From Stratiformator vulcanicus (GTDB lineage Bacteria > Planctomycetota > Planctomycetia > Planctomycetales > Planctomycetaceae): a stretch of 64,000 nucleotides of DNA. The notes under the pieces are model-generated. The model saw nothing but the letters and a program-made list of their open reading frames with translations. It searched no databases and was not told the DNA's origin. This document shows positions 57,276 to 59,323 of this stretch, piece after piece (position 1 is the stretch's first letter; each line of letters starts with the position of its first letter). Location of the stretch: the NCBI RefSeq assembly GCF_007744515.1, contig NZ_CP036268.1:3015712-3079711 (forward strand), in the 5' to 3' direction. Made by a program: the position numbers and the translations under genes.

Positions 57276-57312
57276 AAAAAAACGACCCCGGCTTCACGTG
57301 GAAGCCGGGGTC
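57276..57312 (-). terminator. Strong minus-strand terminator
   Basis: 12-bp perfect stem (57301-57312 with 57284-57295), 5-nt loop, followed by TTTTTTT (57282-57276) on the minus strand after a single G. There is no protein gene upstream of it on that strand apart from the 13-codon frame. Confidence 0.9.
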
Positions 57313-57423
57313 CGGAATTAGTCTCGTCAAATGCGTCTGTCGTTGCGATGACACGTGGTCGAAGCAATTCGAGTCGCGAGACGAGGAGGTGGCTGTCAGA
57401 CGGGACAGCCCGCCGGCGGTCCG

Positions 57424-57465
57424 CTATGCGACACCACCTCGTTGGCAATTAGAATCAGATATCAC
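57424..57465 (-). CDS. 13-residue leader-type peptide
   Basis: GTG ATA TCT GAT ... GCA TAG, giving MISDSNCQRGGVA (one Cys, one Arg, two Gly). Shine-Dalgarno AGGAGG lies 7 nt upstream, the best ribosome site in the window. No repeated codon typical of amino-acid attenuation is present. It could be a leader peptide or a microprotein; it is only a candidate. Confidence 0.4.
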   Translation of the reverse strand: MISDSNCQRGGVA

Positions 57466-57713
57466 TCGACCACCTCCTTTCTCAAATCGAACTTGCCCGC
57501 TACTGTCGGAGCCAATCTCGACACCTTCACGGGCGGGGCGACCCGTCGTGCTGCGTTCGCACGACCCGACAGGGGAATCCTGACCAATTTCTCGCCGAAG
57601 GCAAGCCCCGTTTTCAACTTTTTTAGCGCTGCCTGAACCGGTGTCGCACGATAGGCTCCTCTCGCCCAGTCCTTCGCGACTTGTTTGAATGCCCCCCGGA
57701 AGACACCACGTTT

Positions 57714-58589
57714 ATGAAAATCGCGATTCTGTCACGGGATGAGTCGCTCTATTCGACCCGTCGGCTGACCCACGTGGCCGAGCGAAACGGCCACTCCGTC
57801 CGGGTCATCGACTATCTTCGCTGCTCGATGGACATCACGTCAAAGCGACCGCGGGTTCTCTATCAGGGCGATGAGCTCAAGCGATTCGACGCGGTCATCC
57901 CGCGTATCGGTGTCTCGCAAACATTTTACGGGACTGCCGTCGTGCGGCAGTTCGAAACAATGGGGGTCCGCTCACTAAATTCGTCGACCGCTATCAGTTG
58001 CTCGCGAGATAAGCTCCGCTCGATGCAACAGCTCGCCGCGGCCGGCCTCCCGATGCCGACGACCGGCTTCGCTCATCTGACAAAAGACATCGGAGCCCTC
58101 ATCGATCTAGTCGGCGGGCCGCCGTTGGTCATCAAGTTGTTGGAAGGAACGCAGGGCATCGGTGTGATTCTCGCGGAATCGAGGAATGTGGCCGAAGCCG
58201 TCATCGAAGCCTTTCGCGGACTCGATGCGAATATCCTCGTCCAACAATACGTCGCCGAAGCCCACGGGATCGACTACCGCGCTTTGGTCGTCGGAGGTGA
58301 AGTCGTTGCTGCGATCGAACGGCGGGCCGAGGCAGGGGGGTTCCGGTCGAATCTGCATCGCGGCGGCAAAGCCCGTCGCATCGATTTGTCGACAGAGATG
58401 ATCGATGTCGCCGTCAAAGCCGCGGAGGTCAGCGGCTTGAACCTCGCCGGCATCGATCTCCTGCCGTCCGATCGCGGCCCGCTTGTGATGGAGGTCAACT
58501 CCTCACCCGGGCTTGAGGGCGTCGAGAAAGCGACTCAGATCAACGTCGCCGGCGAGATCATCGGATTTCTTGAAAGTGATTCCGAATGA
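57714..58589 (+). CDS. rimK: RimK-family ATP-grasp ligase
   Basis: About 291 residues from ATG 57714 ([18 protein letters not shown]); an upstream in-frame start at 57681 is less likely. ATP-grasp fold: [70 protein letters not shown] and [17 protein letters not shown]. RimK adds glutamates to ribosomal protein S6; relatives make other gamma-glutamyl products. No RpsF or RimB partner is adjacent, so the target is not certain. The long leader (57211-57713) is opposite the minus RNA. Confidence 0.88.
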
Positions 58590-59252: not shown

Positions 59253-59323
59253 AGCGGGTGAAGGGAATCGAACCCTCGCCTAAAGCTTGGGAAGCTTTCG
59301 TTCTACCATTGAACTACACCCGC
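59253..59323 (-). tRNA. tRNA-Gly (CCC)
   Basis: 71 nt on the minus strand with a perfect 7-bp acceptor stem (GCGGGTG / CACCCGC), D-arm GTTC/GAAC, anticodon stem AAAGC/GCTTT around TTCCCAA (anticodon CCC), T-arm with TTCGATT, and discriminator U. CCA is not encoded. Reads GGG. Confidence 0.95.

Follow-up and report, generated by a model that had tools for sequence, protein, structure and literature searches.

What would an RNA do that is built like a translation-controlled switch but has no gene behind it to control? This question was raised by a minus-strand element in the window, the 64,000-nucleotide stretch of the Stratiformator vulcanicus genome that we analyzed, in which a first-pass annotation had picked out a Shine-Dalgarno (SD) sequence, a tiny reading frame, competing pairings and a terminator between 57276 and 57482. 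The calculated folding energy of that stretch is -86.5 kcal/mol (z -3.8 relative to dinucleotide shuffles), the genome of 5.2 Mb contains the 13-mer AAAGGAGGTGRTC a single time, and dozens of relatives have retained the element; for these reasons we regard the element as more than a product of chance.

The element is probably a stand-alone RNA gene that extends from about 57570 to 57277 on the minus strand. It is longer than the stretch originally annotated, with a predicted promoter and a conserved 5' domain lying upstream, and because of these two features we set the transcription start near 57570. The predicted promoter (57604-57577, minus strand) is of the sigma-70 type, with TTGCCT and CAGGAT separated by 16 nt, and a -35 box (TTGC or TTGT) and a -10 box (often AATAAT) could be aligned upstream of the 5' domain in most planctomycete relatives. 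The -10 box of the window itself is weak, and the predicted promoter was absent from the output of a promoter scan of the window; we infer transcription from this promoter. At the other end, the 12-bp terminator claimed at the outset was confirmed by computation as a stem at 57312-57284 followed by a T run (57312-57276 in all, minus strand), and a GC-rich hairpin with a T run occupies the matching place in most planctomycete relatives. The full-length RNA folds with a z score of -3.1. ARAGORN and cmscan returned only a tRNA-Gly at 59253-59323 in the window, with no tmRNA or other Rfam match over the element. Two plus-strand ORFs that overlap the element (93 and 64 aa) were regarded as incidental.

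The first-pass annotation had seen no downstream gene to control, and our results agree: the next gene in the window is convergent to the RNA and is separated from it by the terminator, so that no co-directional gene lies downstream. When ORFs flanking the planctomycete loci were clustered, any common gene was shared by at most 4 loci, and neighbors varied in both family and strand; cis regulation of a neighboring gene in planctomycetes was therefore rejected. The gene of a RimK-like ATP-grasp protein (57681-58589; Pfam RimK, 201.5 bits) is divergent from the RNA. These arrangements also argue against a cis-acting leader or attenuator, for example of a ribosomal-protein gene, whose target gene was lost here. 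Attenuators do consist of a short frame surrounded by helices that exclude one another, and seven acidobacterial (Bryobacterales-type) loci (L093, L094, L095, L097, L122, L125 and L137) have rpmE (bL31) behind the RNA and its terminator, but with a terminator before the next gene, variable neighbors in planctomycetes and a convergent gene in the window, we consider an attenuator the least probable of the readings that we weighed. The rpmE neighbor may point to a possible link of the acidobacterial loci to ribosome biogenesis.

The first conserved feature of the RNA is its ribosome-binding site. SD1, AGAAAGGAGGTGGTC (57482-57468, minus strand), is very strong, being complementary over 15 nt, with one G-U pair, to the 16S tail GATCACCTCCTTTCT, and is followed by a GTG at 57465, just as the near-perfect SD and GTG had first been described. 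The 16S 3' end was not found in the assembly of the window's own genome, so we used the tail of a same-class relative, G087; with a longer query, the duplex of SD1 with this tail was calculated at -31.9 kcal/mol. A DNA search matched the element in many of 99 related genomes, the strong matches spanning SD1 to the antisequence described below, and most of the retrieved matching regions carried SD1, a start codon, GAGGTG and a short frame. From an alignment of 30 planctomycete sequences (A1), in which GAAAGGAGGTG of SD1 is invariant, we built a covariance model (R1), which gave one match per genome in all 17 genomes sampled from the window's own family and, across the phylum, in 54 of 294.

The frame opened by the GTG runs for 13 codons (MISDSNCQRGGVA; 57465-57424, minus strand) to a TAG at 57426-57424, which confirms the 13-residue frame first noted, and the frame is maintained in relatives. 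Its length varies from 12 to 18 codons. Indels within the coding region in A1 are multiples of three, and both frame and stop are kept despite differing linker lengths. That indels come in threes and that a frame of varying length is kept indicate that translation maintains it, and this conservation supports the view that the mini-frame is translated.

Inside the frame lies a second SD-type element, SD2 (CGAGGTGG; 57441-57434, minus strand), which is nearly or fully invariant in A1. In the window, the first G of its GAGG (within GAGGUGG) is 14 nt before the stop codon and the last sense codon is 7 nt after GAGG. We counted stop triplets by taxon, without picking a frame. All 100 distinct loci from outside the planctomycetes (Actinobacteria, Acidobacteria and other phyla) had a stop triplet at +15 from SD2. 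Of the 47 distinct planctomycete loci, 42 had one at +14 and most of the others at +17. Other offsets nearby carried one in only 0-11%. In 151 of 158 distinct loci, an ATG, GTG or TTG shares its frame with a stop that lies 13-17 nt beyond the first G of SD2. Some weak matches from the phylum but outside the class use the third frame, with the stop at +13 or +16, and three different frames thus read SD2 in different lineages. The distance from SD1 to SD2 ranges from 33 to 57 nt. With a stop codon in the A site, a P-site codon 7-8 nt after GAGG stands at the usual SD spacing, and the SD2-stop distances put the P site of a ribosome at the stop codon at just this place.

Since the same SD2 nucleotides are read in other frames, what is conserved is the distance from SD2 to the stop codon and not the peptide; peptide conservation as the driver was rejected for this reason. 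The locus could still be a gene for a functional micropeptide with a QRGGxA or xEVAxx C-terminus, and the frame is indeed kept, with C-terminal residues that are alike within each lineage. The frame changes between lineages, however, the N-terminus and the length are variable, and some Actinobacteria have no standard start codon, all of which makes a micropeptide gene very unlikely. The self-regulated microprotein that had been offered as one reading of the element was not supported either, its peptide not being conserved and SD2 being read in another frame elsewhere.

We then asked with what SD2 would pair. Downstream of the frame, antisequence D (GACAGCCACC; 57397-57388, minus strand) can pair with the GGTGG of SD2 and the codons that follow it; the antisequence core, CCACCTCC, is at 57392-57385, within a longer segment, GACAGCCACCTCC, at 57397-57385 of the same strand. 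RNAalifold run on A1 with no hints paired SD2 with CAGCCACC and predicted an inner hairpin. The consensus pairs were formed in 96.4% of the cells, with 9 double-change cells, and neither value was matched by any of 500 shuffles. All of the double changes sit in the inner hairpin; the SD2 helix hardly varies. The inner hairpin B:C, GACCGCC-GGCG-GGCTGTC (57421-57404, minus strand), lies just after the stop codon, is paired in 258 of 287 cells (0 of 5000 shuffles were as good), and has double changes in 4 of its 6 consensus pairs. This covariation-supported hairpin takes the place of the separate 7-bp hairpin first proposed, GGCUGUC/GACAGCC, which showed no covariation support, was reached by 491 of 5000 shuffles, and would have a loop of only 1-2 nt in several relatives.

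To compare the two SD elements, we permuted own against cross pairings, bearing in mind that both shuffles and permutations leave sequence relatedness in. Among planctomycetes, SD2 preferred its own 3' segment (20/5000) and SD1 did not (3008/5000). For 73 other loci, the SD2 extension and the 3' segment gave 0/5000, which became 38/10000 when each genus or clade was represented by a single locus and 0/10000 with a motif-anchored 3' segment, the anchoring being partly clade-specific. A low value (9/5000) also came from an unbiased SD1 scan that covered the entire downstream regions of the wider group, used a longer query and included related loci. The 3' segment varies between phyla in its place and partly in its sequence. 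The earlier suggestion that SD1 is sequestered by 57384-57392 was not supported, in that the 9-bp match is largely private to the window and one of its 8 core pairs cannot form in 23 of the 30 relatives, whereas the second purine run, proposed as an alternative partner of the same antisequence, was borne out as SD2 by both RNAalifold and the permutation. Drift without compensation was seen in relatives in the outer part of the SD1:antisequence pairing and was not seen in the SD2:antisequence pairing. On these comparisons, the conserved partner of the antisequence is SD2, and SD1 is not conserved as a paired element. The maintained tiny frame, the competing SD-type elements and the RNA's own terminator support the original view of a regulatory type of RNA.

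We also looked beyond the planctomycetes by scanning 84,980 species genomes for a pattern of SD1, 18-48 nt and CGAGGTGG. At least 120 stretches matched, where a rough arithmetic estimate predicts few chance matches, and the 80 matches listed included Planctomycetes, more Actinobacteria, and also Acidobacteria, Sumerlaeota, Nitrospinae and Deltaproteobacteria. A looser pattern matched exactly once in each of 12 genomes (reversed control, 0), and in a sample of 199 acidobacterial genomes it was present in 14, with one control match. Most loci from other phyla had sigma-70-like promoter boxes, read by eye, just upstream of SD1. When 12 loci were scanned with Rfam, 6 actinobacterial ones proved to be Ms_IGR-5 (RF02471), as did one locus from an acidobacterial MAG. 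Among 30 Ms_IGR-5 loci (L230-L259) selected with the Rfam model instead of our pattern, 6 escaped the regular expression and were read by eye; all 30 had the stop at +15 and the same layout. Several of these loci have no ATG, GTG or TTG and probably start at ATT, ATC or CTG, yet keep the stop, so that conservation is stronger at the stop than at the start.

Ms_IGR-5, the nearest family among those known, resembles the window RNA in having SD1, a short frame, GAGGUGG before the stop and a 3' CAGnCACC element with a terminator after it, and in being a stand-alone transcript normally present in one copy per genome; pairing of its 3' C-rich element with SD2 was likewise found in our tests. It differs in its frame (..EVAxR with the stop at +15, against ..RGGxA and +14 in the window), in lacking the extra 5' domain of the window RNA, and in being catalogued as noncoding. 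The Ms_IGR-5 model gave no match in the window at the gathering (45 bits) or a relaxed threshold, and its best match in the whole genome, of 11.9 bits, was elsewhere; because the Rfam threshold was not reached, we do not claim membership. Conversely, R1 hit the right place in 48 of 48 non-planctomycete loci (E 1.7e-6 to 0.32), with scores mostly from SD1 and SD2, which could converge. The window RNA is built like Ms_IGR-5 and may descend with it. Homologues of Ms_IGR-5 have ribosome reads in M. abscessus and M. smegmatis (PMC4974804), one was detected by RNA-seq in S. lividans (PMC8079986), one is a transcription unit in S. avermitilis (PMC8780764), and M. smegmatis IGR-5 overlaps ncMSMEG15794c (PMC10454040). 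A match to the Acido-Lenti-1 RNA (RF01687; L134:2677-2722) lies in the same 8-kb locus as one copy of the element. The 'Rhodopirellula-1' motif, from Planctomycetes and Proteobacteria, has been described as ambiguous and probably cis-regulatory, and is given no Rfam accession in that description (PMC2864571).

That Ms_IGR-5 is catalogued as an sRNA would fit another reading, an antisense sRNA whose functional part is the C-rich 3' segment, the frame only protecting or timing the RNA and its translation being a by-product. The conservation of the C-rich segment, the predicted promoter and terminator of its own and the unconserved neighbors all fit; the position of SD2 relative to the stop, however, is among the most conserved features, and a by-product would not need it. 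We regard an antisense sRNA of this kind as distinctly unlikely.

We give about an even chance to a switch operated by the ribosome itself, in which a ribosome on the mini-frame opens the SD2 helix and frees the C-rich 3' segment. In the free RNA, SD2 would be locked by the 3' segment (of the CAGnCCACC type). A ribosome would load at SD1, translate the frame and open the SD2:3' helix, and would then halt at the stop codon, where its 16S tail could pair with SD2. The 3' segment would stay free for as long as the ribosome sat at the stop codon, so that the state of translation, whether the supply of initiation or the speed of termination and recycling, would change the shape of the RNA. The exposed segment would most likely act in trans, on putative target mRNAs whose ribosome-binding sites are rich in G. 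Whether ribosomes pause at internal SD-like motifs is disputed, such pauses having been called an artefact of library preparation (PMC6377232), and SD2 therefore need not hold the ribosome. The same layout in distant phyla suggests an RNA switch operated by the ribosome that is probably old and so far uncharacterised. More tentatively, and at somewhat less than an even chance, we propose an ancient class of stand-alone ribosome-sensing RNAs in at least Planctomycetota, Actinomycetota, Acidobacteriota and several other phyla, in which SD2 at the stop would read the terminating ribosome and toggle the 3' anti-SD; the peptide would be irrelevant, since all three frames are used.

Much of this evidence would also suit a sink for ribosomes or 30S subunits, in which SD1 captures 30S and SD2 retains post-termination subunits, so that fewer ribosomes would be free under some condition, with the 3' segment only regulating capture. 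The whole 16S tail is complementary to SD1, SD2 is positioned for a terminating ribosome, the length of the frame is close to that of one ribosome footprint, and the peptide would again be irrelevant. A sink would nevertheless require amounts of RNA on a par with ribosomes, and it would not by itself explain the SD2:3' pairing; we think it rather unlikely.

The proposed ribosome-operated switch has partial parallels. In prfB programmed frameshifting, an internal SD near a stop also acts on the ribosome, together with a slippery site and a long second frame; its SD-stop spacing is much shorter than in the window RNA, where nothing follows the frame. SgrS/SgrT is a dual-function sRNA whose peptide or pairing function is separable. 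RyhB/RyhP is reported to be another (PMC5331693). Dual-function sRNAs are, like the window RNA, of a trans-encoded type with a small frame, whose translation here is suggested by its conservation, but the window RNA carries its regulatory SD2 inside the frame itself. In leader-peptide attenuators of the trp type and the S. aureus rbf uORF (PMC13009471), as proposed here, the position of a ribosome on a short frame selects between exclusive helices; unlike them, the window RNA has no downstream gene and no conserved peptide, and its conserved signal is an SD at the stop.

An actinobacterial sRNA family listed by Rfam as noncoding thus carries a mini-frame that is maintained and whose stop keeps a rigid distance from an SD, and planctomycetes and several other phyla have this layout in a single gene that stands alone. 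Should the ribosome-operated switch be real, it would be a new way of turning the state of translation into a regulatory signal. The layout also provides a natural test of whether SD:anti-SD pairing acts on terminating ribosomes; such an action on elongating ribosomes is disputed. It can be tested directly in laboratory actinobacteria, Streptomyces lividans and M. smegmatis among them.

The 5' domain of the window RNA contains two hairpins on the minus strand. P1 (57565-57545) has a GTCGTGC/GCACGAC stem and the loop GAACGCA (consensus NACGCR); its stem letters change among relatives while 6-7 of the 7 pairs and the loop are kept, and its position is constant in nearly all planctomycete loci tested. 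P2 (GCCCG...CGGGC; 57534-57495) is in the predicted fold, and its arms could be aligned in most relatives. P1 with its NACGCR loop is an extra of the planctomycete version; other phyla often have an ACGC resembling it directly before SD1, at the likely 5' end of the RNA.
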